Source: Herminiimonas sp.
GTDB taxonomy: Bacteria > Pseudomonadota > Gammaproteobacteria > Burkholderiales > Burkholderiaceae_D
DNA length: 64,000 bases
Direction of reading: 5' to 3'
NCBI GenBank assembly: GCA_014377845.1
Contig: JACMOV010000224.1
Span: 26,404-90,403, forward strand
Each line of letters opens with the position of its first letter. Position 1 is the first letter of the stretch. The position numbers and the translations under genes were made by a program. Of the stretch, positions 296-24,786 are shown piece after piece. The notes below the pieces were generated by a model, which saw only the letters and a program-made list of their open reading frames with translations, ran no database searches and was not told where the DNA came from.

Positions 296-2916
<2,621 letters not shown>

Positions 2917-20779: not shown

Positions 20780-23700
20780 TTAGCCGATGTTTGGCGCCAG
20801 CCAGCGTTCGACCTCGTCCTTCGAAACCCCGCGCCGGCGCGTCATGTCCGTGACCTGATCGTCGCCGATCTTGCCGACGCTGAAGTACTTCGAATCCGGA
20901 TGGGCGAAGTAGAAACCGCACACCGAGGCGCCCGGAAACATCGCGAAGGATTCGGTGAGCTGCATGCCGATCTCCTCGCACTGCAGCAGCTTGAACATGT
21001 CGGCCTTGACCGTATGTTCCGGGCAAGCCGGATAGCCGGGCGCGGGCCGGATGCCGCGATAGGTTTCGGCGATCAGGGCCGCCCTGTCGAGCGACTCGTC
21101 GGGCGCAAATCCCCACAGGTCGGTGCGAACCCGTTCGTGCAGTTGTTCTGCAAAGGCTTCGGCCAGGCGGTCGGCGAGCGACTTGAGCATGATCGACGAA
21201 TAGTCGTCATGCGCATCCTCGAAGCGCTTTTCATGCTTCTCGATACCGATGCCCGCAGTGACCGCGAACAGGCCGATGTAGTCGGCCACGCCCGACGATT
21301 TCGGCGCGATGAAATCGGCCAGGCACTGGTTCGGCCGCGCCACGCCGTCGATTACCGGCTTGACGCCCTGTTGCCGCACGCCGTAGTAGGTGAAGGCGAC
21401 GTCGGTGCGAGTGTCGTCGGTGTAGATCTCGATGTCGTCGTCGTTGACGCTGTTGGCCGGCATCATGGCGATCACGCCGTTGGCCGACAGCCAGCGGCCG
21501 TCGATGACTTTCTTGAGCAGCGCCTGCCCTTCTTCGAACACCTTGCTGGCCGATTCGCCCACCACCGGATCAGTCAGGATGGCCGGAAACGGACCGGCGA
21601 GGTCCCAGGTCTGGAAGAACGGGCCCCAGTCAACGTATTGCGCCAGCAGGCCGAGATCGACATTCTTGAACACCCGGCGGCCAATGAACTTGGGCTTTTG
21701 CGGTGCATCCGCGCCGTCGAAGCGCACCACCATCCGGTTGAGGCGGGCCTGCGCCAGGCTCAGCAGCGGCGTCGCCTTCTTGTTCGCATGCTGGATGCGG
21801 ATGCGTTCGTAGTCGACCGCGATCTCTTCGATGTAGGCGTCGCGCTGCTCGGGCGTGAGCAGCGACTGCGCCACCGAGACCGAGCGCGAGGCGTCGGCAA
21901 CGTACACCACCGGACCATCGTAGTTCTGCGCGATTTTCACCGCCGTATGCGCACGCGAGGTGGTCGCGCCGCCGATCAGCAGCGGCGTCTTCAGGCCGCG
22001 GAAATACGGATCGCGCTGCATCTCCTTGGCCACATACGCCATCTCTTCGAGCGACGGCGTGATCAGTCCCGACAGGCCGATGATGTCGGCGTTCTCGGCC
22101 TTGGCACGGGCCAGGATTTCGGCGCACGGCACCATCACGCCCATGTTCACGACTTCGAAGTTATTGCACTGCAGGACCACCGAGACGATGTTCTTGCCAA
22201 TGTCGTGGACGTCGCCCTTGACGGTGGCGATCACGATCTTGCCCTTCGGTTTGGCGGCGACGCCGGTGCGCCGCTCTTCCAGCAGTTTCTCGGCTTCGAT
22301 GTACGGAATCAGATGGGCCACCGCCTGCTTCATGACGCGCGCCGACTTGACCACCTGCGGCAGGAACATCTTGCCCTGCCCGAACAGGTCGCCGACGATG
22401 TTCATGCCATCCATCAGCGGGCCCTCGATCACATGGATCGGCCGGCCGCCGTTGACCAGCAGTTCCTGGCGCGCTTCCTCGGTGTCCTCGACGATCCATT
22501 GCGTGATGCCGTGTACCAGTGCATGCGCCAGCCGCTTCTGGACCGTGCCTTCGCGCCAGACCAGCGTCTCTTCTTCCTTCTTGCCGCCGGCCTTCAAGGT
22601 GCCGGCGAATTCGATCATGCGCTCGGTGGCATTCAGATTGTCGGGATTGTCGCCGGTCACAGGGCGGTTCAGGACCACGTCCTCGACGCGCTCGCGCAGT
22701 TCCGGCGACAGCTCGCTATAGACGCCCATCATGCCGGCATTGACGATGCCCATCGTCATGCCGGCCTGGATCGCGTGGTACAGGAAGACGGTATGAATCG
22801 CTTCGCGCGCCGGGTCGTTGCCGCGGAAGCTGAAGCTGACGTTGGAGACGCCGCCGCTGATCTTGGCATGCGGCAGGTTCGCCCTGATCCAGCGGGTGGC
22901 GTTGATGAAATCGACCGCGTAGTTGTTGTGCTCGTCGATGCCGGTGGCAATCGCAAAGATGTTCGGATCGAAGATGATGTCTTCCGGCGGAAAACCGACC
23001 TGCGACACCAGCAGCTTGTAGGCGCGTTCGCAGATCTCGATCTTGCGCTCGTAGGTATCGGCCTGGCCCTTCTCGTCGAAAGCCATCACGATCACCGCCG
23101 CGCCGTAGCGCCGGCACAGGGTGGCCTGGCGCAGGAACTCCGCCTCGCCTTCCTTCATCGAGATCGAGTTGACGATCGCCTTGCCCTGCACGCATTTCAG
23201 ACCGGCTTCGATGACCGACCATTTCGACGAATCGATCATGATCGGCACCCGTGCGATGTCGGGCTCGGAGGCGATCAGGTTCAGGAAGCGGGTCATGGCG
23301 GCGACCGAATCGAGCATCGCTTCGTCCATGTTGATGTCGATGATCTGCGCGCCGTTTTCCACCTGCTGGCGGGCGACCGTCAGCGCTTCGTCGTACTGCT
23401 CGTTCAGGATCAGGCGGGCGAAGGCTTTGGAGCCGGTGACATTGGTGCGCTCGCCGACGTTGACGAACAGCGACGCGTCGTCGATCGTGAAAGGCTCCAG
23501 GCCGGACAGACGCATCGCCGGCGCCACCTCGGGCAGCTTGCGCGGCGCGATCTTCGCCACGACCTCGGCGATCGCGCGGATGTGGGCCGGCGTGGTGCCG
23601 CAGCAGCCGCCGGCGATGTTGACGAAGCCGCTCTCGGCAAAATCCTGCAGCAGCGACGAGGTCACGTCCGGGGTTTCGTCGAAGCCGGTATCGCTCATCG

Positions 23701-24574
23701 GATTGGGCAGGCCGGCATTCGGATAGATGCTGACGAAGGTGTCGGCGATCTTCGACAGTTCCTCCGCATAGGGGCGCATCAGCGCTGCACCGAGCGCGCA
23801 ATTCAGGCCGACGGTCAGCGGGCGCGCATGCCGGACCGAATTCCAGAACGCCGGTACGGTCTGCCCCGACAGGATGCGGCCGGAGGCATCGGTGACGGTG
23901 CCGGAGATCATGATCGGCAGGGTCTTGCCGGATTCCTCGAAAAACTGGTCGATCGCAAACAGCGCTGCCTTGCAATTGAGCGTGTCGAAAATCGTCTCCA
24001 CCAGCAGCACGTCGGCACCGCCTTCGACCAGGCCGCGAGTTTGCTCCAGGTACGCCGCCACCAGCTGGTCGAAGGTGACATTGCGCGCAGCCGGATCGTT
24101 GACGTCGGGCGAAATCGACGCGGTCTTCGGTGTCGGCCCGAGTGCGCCGGCGACGAAGCGCGGCTTGTCCGGCGTCGAATACTTGTCGCAGGCAGCCCGT
24201 GCCAGGCGTGCGGCGGCGACGTTCATCTCATAGGCGAGCTCGCCCATCTGGTAATCATCCTGCGCCACCGAGGTCGCACCGAAGGTATTCGATTCGATCA
24301 GGTCGGCGCCGGCGGCCAGGTACTGTTCGTGGATTTCGCTGATGATGTGCGGCTGCGTCAGGCACAGCAACTCGTTGTTGCCCTTGACGAAAACTTCCTT
24401 GCCGGGCGGCGCGAAATCGGCAAAGCGCGTACCGCGATAGTCTGCTTCCGACAGGTGGTATTGCTGAATCATCGTGCCCATCGCGCCATCGAGAACGAGG
24501 ATGCGGCGCGCGAGCAGGTCACGCAGGATGGATTCGGTAGTCGACATGCTCGAAGGTACGGCGTCGCGTTTCAT
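20780..24574 (-). CDS. metH: Cobalamin-dependent methionine synthase
   Basis: Full-length enzyme of 1264 residues, transferring the methyl group of methyltetrahydrofolate to homocysteine through B12. Domains in order: homocysteine-binding barrel (about 10-335) with zinc ligands Cys259, Cys324 and Cys325 (GGCCGTTP), pterin-binding barrel (about 360-630), B12 cap and cobalamin domain (about 660-900) with the base-off ligand His790 in GDVHDIGKN, and the AdoMet-binding reactivation domain (about 930-1264) with [13 protein letters not shown]. The ATG at 24574 has GGAA 6 nt upstream; ATG 24547 ([11 protein letters not shown]) is an alternative. Expression is probably controlled by the SAM-II-like leader directly upstream. 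Confidence 0.97.
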
Positions 24575-24583
24575 GAAAATTCC

Positions 24584-24620
24584 AAAAAAATAACCCGGAA
24601 CTGCGTGAGCGGGGCCGGGT
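24584..24620 (-). terminator. Intrinsic terminator in the metH leader
   Basis: On the minus strand the stem ACCCGG/CCGGGT (24615-24620 with 24593-24598) encloses CCCCGCTCACGCAGTT and is followed by TA and a run of seven U residues (24584-24590), ending 10 bp before the metH ATG. Its position between an aptamer-like sequence and the start codon indicates premature termination control. Confidence 0.75.
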
Positions 24621-24629
24621 CATTCCGCG

Positions 24630-24712
24630 AGCCGCTTTAGCAGTATTTTTAAGTGGGACTGGACCCTGGCGCCCGCAAGCTGGTTTGACTGGGAAATCAA
24701 ATCGGCGCCGGC
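24630..24712 (-). promoter_or_regulatory. SAM-II-type riboswitch candidate upstream of metH
   Basis: Read on the minus strand, stem P1 is GGCGCC (24704-24709) paired with GGCGCC (24668-24673). The 5' strand is followed by GATTTG (24698-24703) and the 3' strand preceded by GCTTGC (24675-24680); TTAAAAAT (24645-24652) and GCTAAAG (24635-24641) come next. These are the conserved SAM-II blocks in the right order, and UUGC can pair with GCUAA as the pseudoknot. Extra small hairpins TTTGA/TCAAA and GGG/CCC sit in the loops, as in long-loop variants. AGCGG at the aptamer 3' edge (24632-24636) can pair with CCGCT (24608-24612), sequestering the terminator's 5' arm, so ligand binding should favour termination. 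Confidence 0.7.
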
Positions 24713-24786
24713 AAATTATACGGTAAAACCGGCGGTCGATTGCCACTGCTGGCGGTATCGCAGGCGCAGCGCCCCGCCCCGGCAGA

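Follow-up and report, generated by a model that had tools for sequence, protein, structure and literature searches.

A Probable SAM-II-Family Riboswitch with Two Insert Hairpins in the metH Leader of Herminiimonas sp. and Its Relatives before Other Methionine Genes

The sequence of the metH leader of Herminiimonas sp. marks it as very likely a riboswitch of the SAM-II family, carrying two insertions and working as a transcriptional OFF switch. The leader lies on the minus strand of the window, by which we mean the whole stretch of DNA analysed (64,000 nucleotides), whose numbering is used throughout. Its core is conserved among relatives and homologous to elements that the Rfam SAM-II model (SAM_alpha, RF00521) finds elsewhere; an intrinsic terminator follows the core, and the 3' strand of the pseudoknot is complementary to bases in the terminator loop. 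A sister element precedes metK in the same genome.

Results

Organization of the metH leader

The controlled gene, metH (methionine synthase, 1264 aa), occupies positions 20780..24574 on the minus strand, with its ATG at 24574-24572; the product matches TIGR02082 at 1682.9 bits (cut-off 1010.85). Its upstream neighbour, encoded on the same strand, is fmt (273.4 bits with TIGR00460; cut-off 201.5). A 1246-codon open frame runs antisense to metH (window 20900-24640, plus strand) and is probably a by-product of GC-rich codon usage. All leader features described below are on the minus strand.

A TATAAT hexamer, the presumed -10 promoter box, lies at 24715..24720, 5 bases ahead of P1, and transcription would start at about 24709. 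A consensus scan for a sigma-70-like site found none in the leader. In SAM-II elements the promoter is reported a few bases upstream of P1 (PMC1273637). The sequence-only reading had listed six SAM-II blocks in a given order, and all six are there as described: GGCGCC, GATTTG, GCTTGC (24680-24675), GGCGCC, TTAAAAAT and GCTAAAG (24641-24635). The two GGCGCC blocks, at 24704..24709 and 24668..24673, form all six pairs of P1 (24704-24709 with 24673-24668). GATTTG (24698..24703) is the predicted major-groove third strand. The P2 pseudoknot is made of a 5' strand, CC-AGC-TTGC (CCAGCTTGC, 24675..24683), and a 3' strand, ACT-GCTAAA-GCGG (ACTGCTAAAGCGG, 24632..24644), which includes the ligand-site U-A-A-A. 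TTGC pairs with the GC-AA of GCTAAA (24641-24636), CC pairs with GG at 24633-24632, and every P2b pair is present. An additional Watson-Crick pair, G24674-C24643, is of the kind predicted for SAM-II (PMC2258182).

The bases contacting SAM are known from crystal structures, and those given in PMC6061858 were mapped onto the leader. All the corresponding bases are present, namely UUU, the second U of UUGC, and the U and AAA of GCUAAA. UUU (24701-24699) would be, by motif, the ligand-site residues U8, U9 and U10 of the SAM-V crystal. The base opposite the aminoacyl-binding A of SAM-V (A18) is C here, as it is in 99 of the 109 cores introduced below. The octamer TTAAAAAT (24645..24652) supplies the loop-3 adenines; in SAM-V, adenines at the equivalent place make minor-groove contacts (PMC6061858).

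Two hairpins are inserted into this framework, in agreement with the extra loop hairpins that the sequence-only reading had pointed out. The first, in loop 1 (TTTGATT / AGTCAAA, 24684..24701), can pair the three ligand-site uridines. The second, in loop 3, is a P3 hairpin of GGG (24666-24664) and CCC (24657-24655) around a 6-nt loop (24655..24666 overall).

Downstream, the intrinsic terminator (24588..24625) has an 11-bp stem of -17.3 kcal/mol, formed by GAATGACCCGG (24625-24615) and CCGGGTTATTT (24598-24588), and a tract of seven U, read from the sequence, at 24584..24590. These seven residues had been placed 10 bp before the ATG; the gap is 9 nt. A consensus scan for terminators with loops of 3-8 only found none in the leader.

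Probable assignment to the SAM-II family

With Rfam models used at their cut-offs, there was no match anywhere in the 64-kb window. The metH leader gets 11.4 bits from RF00521, where 36 would be needed, and most of the alignment falls in the 3' part of the leader. SAM_V (RF01826), SAH (RF01057) and SAM-II_long_loops (RF01726) give no leader match up to E 10; RF01726 has none across the whole genome at E 0.001. Matches to STnc240, DsrA and HTT-AS1_3 in the leader were far below their cut-offs and were rejected. In 20 relatives, Rfam at cut-off reported only RF02278 sRNAs and missed the element; copies of this Betaproteobacteria toxic small RNA were seen near the metH leader at L005, L017, L036 and L037. 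Insert-free relatives also fall under the RF00521 cut-off (24.8-31.7 bits). The low score of the metH leader is largely due to the two insert hairpins. We regard 36 bits as a threshold set for the library, which does not define the RNA, and class the leader as a SAM-II variant on the tests that follow.

Two models were built. R1 comes from A1, a 50-sequence alignment (Oxalobacteraceae-type) with 14 rows from a set of 80 metH loci. R3 comes from A3 only, the 20 elements that RF00521 found elsewhere. Searched against the 64-kb window, R3 has a sole match at E<=1 and it is the metH leader (24628-24709, 20.5 bits, E 0.0024). The covariance-model scan that had been proposed for the leader thus misses with the Rfam SAM-II model at its cut-off and succeeds with a model made from elements that Rfam itself identified. 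In the R3 alignment the P1 3' strand is set into the P3 arm, which we take to be an effect of the inserts. Applied at E 0.5 to the 80 metH loci, R3 agrees with R1 throughout: it matches the 30 loci that R1 matches and leaves the remaining 50 without a match. Twelve insert-free members of the 30 score 54-59 bits and 13 more reach E<=0.05 (25/30 at E 0.05); L039, L034, L046, L061 and L056 lie at E 0.051-0.36, and in six of the 30 the match is partial or in two pieces. In the reverse direction, R1 was run on 15 RF00521 loci from other classes: five scored 23.7-26.2 bits and a sixth 16.7, and four stood at 14.5-15.3 bits, the level of the noise matches that R1 has in the window (14.8 and 14.4). 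At E 1 the remaining five gave nothing.

RF00521 was also searched across 299 genomes of the phylum and matched 65 of them at E 0.01, with 49 scoring above cut-off. The host's own order accounts for six of these, one of them above cut-off; all have the same blocks and lack inserts. Five of these six precede metX or metZ-like genes, and the gene at the sixth (L164) was uncalled. The places found in other classes, presumably alphaproteobacteria, share the core with a different P1. R1 matches of 18-22 bits at L230, L261, L263, L264, L265, L268 and L269 lack the blocks and were judged false by eye; weak RF00521 matches at L172, L173 and L174, where the core is absent, were set aside.

Conservation and distribution

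At the DNA level the metH leader is conserved in 67 of 196 genomes of its GTDB family (DNA search, E 0.01), and several of these have a second, shorter match elsewhere. Twenty such second places were fetched; those read adjoin metX or a gene of the cystathionine gamma-synthase family, save L131, which precedes metH. The same blocks occur in the same order before metX, metZ-like and metB-like genes, differing slightly, for the most part within TTAAAAAT and downstream of GCTAAA. In A1, 32 columns are invariant, in part by selection, since the patterns used to gather its rows already required some of the blocks; the invariant positions include GATTTG, GCTAAA, and two A and the T of TTAAAAAT. GATTTG and GCTAAA are invariant in A3 as well. 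The R1 and R3 searches were run without the gathering patterns, though R1 was built from A1. At E 0.001, R1 finds the element in 215 of 393 family genomes and 37 of 44 genera. Judged by these sequence comparisons, the resemblance of the leader blocks to SAM-II is not due to chance.

Among the 80 named metH loci, which are the best 80 of the matches listed, 30 have the element: nine from Undibacterium, two from Noviherbaspirillum, Oxalicibacterium faecigallinarum, two Herminiimonas MAGs, and 16 other MAGs or unclassified genomes. The 50 loci of these best 80 found without it include Herbaspirillum, Collimonas, Methylotenera, Cupriavidus and two named Herminiimonas species. The metH leaders of Undibacterium have the element free of inserts (52.0-56.2 bits with R1, 54.3-59.2 with R3).

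Most counts below refer to 109 cores delimited by a parser in the beta/gamma set outside L132-L161, one of them (L175) from another class. The parser demands P1 pairs 2-6, TTGC and GCTAA[AG], so that these are paired by construction both in the core counts and in A3; L157, L158, L159 and L161, which have one extra base before the P1 3' strand, were left unparsed and are excluded. The genes labelled after the 109 cores are metH (54), metX (28), metZ/Y/B-like (17), metK (2) and cysK-like (1), with seven unlabelled. The leader of metX in the host's own genome (G000:C40) has no element. TATAAT is found no more than 25 nt ahead of P1 in 52 of the 54 metH-labelled cores and in 0 of the 28 metX-labelled ones.

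Covariation

Related leaders contain the compensatory changes whose presence had been proposed as a check, in P1, in the extra G-C/A-U pair and in outer P2. Across the phylum the pair types of P1 swap together, for instance C-G, G-C and U-A at one position (pairs 2-6 being required by the parser). The extra pair is formed in 124 of 124 cores (G-C 110, A-U 13, G-U 1); in A3, where it played no part in choosing rows, it is G-C in 13 and A-U in seven. The outer P2 pair is formed in 92 of 109 cores against 74.9 expected; it is C-G in most metH elements, and U-A in many of those before metX and in some from Undibacterium. Within A1 it alone has numerous two-sided changes (C-G 25, U-A 14, unpaired 9). 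P1 and inner P2 never vary within the metH group and so yield no covariation there.

In A3, 97.3% of the cells pair. The covariation score and the number of cells changed on both sides exceed those of all 500 shuffles and of all slid versions of the alignment; two of five measures, pairs changed on both sides (165/500) and further pair types (500/500), do not rise above shuffles. This permutation test, like that for the duplexes below, ignores the relatedness of the sequences. Taken with the model match, and with no better fit to an SAH aptamer, these changes support the SAM-II reading on each of the points that had been named as decisive against it.

The insert hairpins

A loop-3 insert (of length 8 or more) is found in 77 of the 109 cores and a loop-1 insert in 60; 32 have neither. 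Folding is better than in mononucleotide shuffles for inserts of either kind; the 75 distinct loop-3 inserts average -7.4 kcal/mol compared with -2.8 after shuffling. According to PMC6061858, SAM-V has a 3-bp P3 at the place of the loop-3 insert and SAM-II has none. The loop-1 insert includes TCAA, the complement to the third-strand UUUGA, in all 44 metH-type elements that carry it (two of them typed by their P2 tail) and in none of the 16 other elements with an insert. At the next outward pair of the hairpin, covariation was looked for and none was found. It seems possible, with conservation in favor and covariation not, that the loop-1 hairpin is a latch on the ligand-site uridines. As a separate observation, the leaders at L131:1581-1790 (metH) and L241:1397-1620 (metX) have the aptamer split by a long loop-3 insertion.

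Terminator, antiterminator and proposed mode of control

The sequence-only reading had AGCGG (24636-24632) pairing with CCGCT (24612-24608), and these coordinates are right; the duplex is worth -8.0 kcal/mol. It had also described the pairing as hiding the 5' arm of the terminator. The pairing stands, with a different geometry: CCGCT lies in the terminator loop, so that the antiterminator encloses the 5' arm. Folding of successive transcript prefixes, computed without pseudoknots, further indicated that the antiterminator is longer than first described, with ACTGC (24644-24640) and GCAGT (24604-24600) pairing outside AGCGG/CCGCT. Its 3' side thus spans 24600..24612, within the terminator loop, and the P2 3' strand (24632..24644) doubles as its 5' side. 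In these prefixes the mean pair probability of AGCGG/CCGCT is 0.00 when the transcript ends at 24608 or 24604 and 0.96 at 24600 and 24596; for the antiterminator it is 0.92 at 24592, 0.05 at 24588, 0.02 at 24584 and 0.33 in the full leader. When the P2 strands were barred from pairing, as they might be in the SAM-bound state, the terminator formed from 24592 on. A terminator with a complete 3' arm outcompetes the antiterminator at equilibrium; a working switch would therefore need to be kinetic. The order of folding, antiterminator and then terminator, fits an OFF switch that decides while the polymerase crosses about a dozen bases. The folding energy of the leader as a whole resembles that of shuffles (z -0.29), as computed by a program blind to pseudoknots.

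Control by a terminator and an antiterminator, as had been suggested for the metH leader, is borne out by the relatives, in which terminators are frequent and complementarity overall is non-random, though weak in the metX group. Of the 109 cores, 100 are followed by a terminator in a permissive search, five of these terminators being weaker than -9 kcal/mol; in four of the nine others (L036, L045, L165 and L209) a hairpin is present but the T run is shorter. Duplexes of the P2 3' strand with the arm and loop of its own terminator average -8.72 kcal/mol (n=100), compared with -8.13 for permuted partners (0/5000 as low) and -5.73 for shuffled partners. By gene, the means are -8.4 for metH (51), -12.4 for metZ/metB-like genes (16), -6.5 for metX (24) and -13.9 for metK (2); the evidence from this duplex is weak for metX elements. 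Covariation was sought in the outer antiterminator helix and none was found (Fisher p 0.65).

We propose the following scheme. The pocket for SAM would be built from P1 and the pseudoknot P2, UUU (24701-24699) serving as the third strand. When SAM is low, the P2 3' strand (ACUGCUAAAGCGG) would pair with CCGCU and GCAGU as they emerge from the polymerase, and the antiterminator, by enclosing the 5' arm of the terminator, would allow read-through into metH. When SAM is high, the strand would be held in P2, the terminator would form and metH would be shut off. In the metH subgroup the loop-1 hairpin might pair the ligand-site uridines whenever SAM is absent.

A sister element before metK

A second R1 match in the host's own genome (27 bits; G000:C53:2576-2634 on the minus strand, equivalent to L238:1577-1635) lies before metK. 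Fifteen elements of this type, 11 of them before metK, were aligned (A2) and used to build model R2. In A2, 94.8% of cells are paired and five pairs are changed on both sides. At E 0.001, R2 matches 189 of 196 family genomes and 42 of 44 genera, and by a count made by eye 179 of the genomes reach 1e-10 or better. Some terminator-type elements are matched by R2 too, so its weaker matches need not represent metK. All 31 leaders read at first (the 11 chosen earlier and the 20 best-scoring) precede metK, as do all 20 read further down the R2 list, for a total of 51/51. Besides L238, the loci recorded for the metK type are L231-L233, L255, L258-L260, L262, L266, L267, L270-L289 and L291-L310. Rfam gave no match up to E 0.5 on five metK loci; with R3, 14 of the 15 elements in A2 reach 23 bits or more and the last one 13.

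Compared with the metH form, the metK form has GAGUUA for GAUUUG, an extra pair shifted by one base, and a 3-bp GAC/GUC P2a. Where the third strand begins its U run, the metK form has G; in SAM-V that first U contacts the uridine pairing with the adenine of SAM, so the pocket of the metK form may differ. No terminator was seen in metK-type elements, which mostly have an anti-Shine-Dalgarno strand. For the first set, pairing between the Shine-Dalgarno region and the bases that follow GCTAAAGC averages -15.8 (-8.2 when shuffled), and paired changes are seen in GCAGGCTC/GAGCCTGC, GCAAGCTC/GAGCTTGC and GCAGACTTT/GGAGTCTGT. The mean is -13.3 in the second set (n=20; shuffled -8.0), where six members (L291, L293, L295, L306, L309 and L310) do no better than about -8.7; the step is thus common, not universal.

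Several arrangements seen in passing are recorded here. At L239:1337-1506 and L240:1312-1494 (G042), a terminator-type element is followed by one of the GCTAAAGCGTCGCC type; these tandem aptamers precede a cystathionine gamma-synthase-like and a cysteine-synthase-like gene (named by eye) and resemble the mixed tandem SAM-II described in PMC9481103. L168 and L169, in the same class, have an RF00521-found SAM-II and a terminator before metK, with a 9-bp GCTAAACAG/CTGTTTAGC antiterminator duplex in L168 and, by eye, the same letters in L169. Elements of the metK type also precede an AAA-ATPase-like gene (by eye; L252:1229-1287) and an unnamed short gene (L254:1197-1255); L252 has a SAM-I-IV riboswitch too (53.9 bits, 2164-2271, minus strand).

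Discussion

The metH leader shares with SAM-II (RF00521) P1, the pseudoknot P2, GAUUUG, UUGC/GCUAA, the extra pair and the loop-3 adenines, as well as a promoter just before P1, a terminator and an association with methionine genes; it departs from it in the inserts of loops 1 and 3, in a score below cut-off and in having metH as target. SAM-II long loops (RF01726) is by its name a SAM-II with enlarged loops, but is from Bacteroidetes and marine sequences (PMC2864571).

The closest competitor is SAM-V (RF01826), which has the same pocket and a P3 hairpin after P1. The metH element might belong with SAM-V, or be an intermediate that unites the two classes: its P3 of 3 bp occupies the same place as that of SAM-V, and the SAM-II and SAM-V crystal cores superpose at 0.373 A (both from PMC6061858). 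We consider this unlikely. The SAM-V model is silent on the leader where SAM_alpha matches it weakly, a 6-bp P1 and a terminator are SAM-II traits, and SAM-II models give much higher scores to relatives lacking P3, in Undibacterium and elsewhere. SAM-V is translational, with a P2a of 2 bp (PMC6061858); its P2a lies over the Shine-Dalgarno sequence, whereas here a terminator sits between P2 and the metH ATG.

That the pocket senses another ligand, such as SAH, is more doubtful still. PMC4239095 does report metH under SAH riboswitches in Comamonadaceae, but the leader retains the bases that contact SAM in PMC6061858, the two uridines next to the sulfonium among them, the SAH model (RF01057) finds nothing in the leader up to E 10, and metX and metZ-like targets fit feedback by SAM. 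Slimmer again are the chances of a leader that binds a protein, or of an attenuator reading the methionine supply through another factor: PMC4239095 leaves the effector of the metXZ element open, but the conservation falls on the bases of an RNA ligand pocket. An ordinary fmt-metH terminator with a chance resemblance to an aptamer, to which the unexceptional folding energy and the want of an Rfam match above cut-off might lend color, is scarcely credible given the conservation of single-stranded blocks across 37 of 44 family genera (R1) and before several unlinked methionine genes. A SAM-II-family OFF switch thus remains the preferred reading.

The sequence-only reading regarded a SAM-II before metH in a betaproteobacterium as a notable variant. 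SAM-II in this group was already known: a Bordetella bronchiseptica element appears in a figure legend of PMC1273637, and both alpha- and beta-proteobacterial SAM-II terminators are described in PMC2258182. What appears to be unreported is the metH form with inserts. An RNA element termed metXZ was described in beta-proteobacteria by Leyn 2014 (PMC4239095), where it is given no ligand or class and is listed apart from SAM_alpha. Like the present elements, it has, as described there, six conserved regions, the first pairing with the fourth, a pseudoknot, a terminator with a proposed antiterminator, and metX/metZ targets in beta-proteobacteria; it differs in that metH is not named among the targets in the passages compared. 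The comparison was made with the description in words; on that footing, the metXZ element is almost certainly of the same family as the element of the metH leader.

Leaders of metX/metZ have also been filed as an sRNA (PMC3521395; RF02424). This Bp2_287 'sRNA' covers the same leaders and is modelled on the opposite strand. Sub-cut-off RF02424 matches were antisense to the SAM-II match in five of five cases (L215, L237, L165, L239 and L240), so the Rfam family may model the wrong strand. A literature search, with subscription papers mostly outside its reach, returned no paper joining metXZ or RF02424 to SAM-II and none with a SAM-II element before metH; the insert-bearing metH form and the link between metXZ and SAM-II are in no paper that we found.

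We lean somewhat toward a broader picture, whose parts are to be taken together, in which Burkholderiales possess a SAM-II-derived regulon with new architectures. One part would consist of terminator switches before metH, metX and metZ/metB-like genes, endowed with a P3 hairpin and, in the metH branch only, with a hairpin in loop 1 that keeps the ligand-site uridines locked until the arrival of SAM. The other would be an unlisted, almost universal metK sister aptamer that gates the Shine-Dalgarno sequence in most species by means of an anti-Shine-Dalgarno strand.

These elements would supply a probable ligand and class for the orphan metXZ element and for a family that Rfam files as an antisense sRNA, and would add metH to the targets. 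A SAM-II that bears a P3 narrows the gap between SAM-II and SAM-V. In PMC4239095, beta-proteobacterial metK is without a known methionine regulator, the authors' search having failed; the metK relative would answer the gap stated there, and, if its proposed role is true, SAM synthetase would be controlled at translation.
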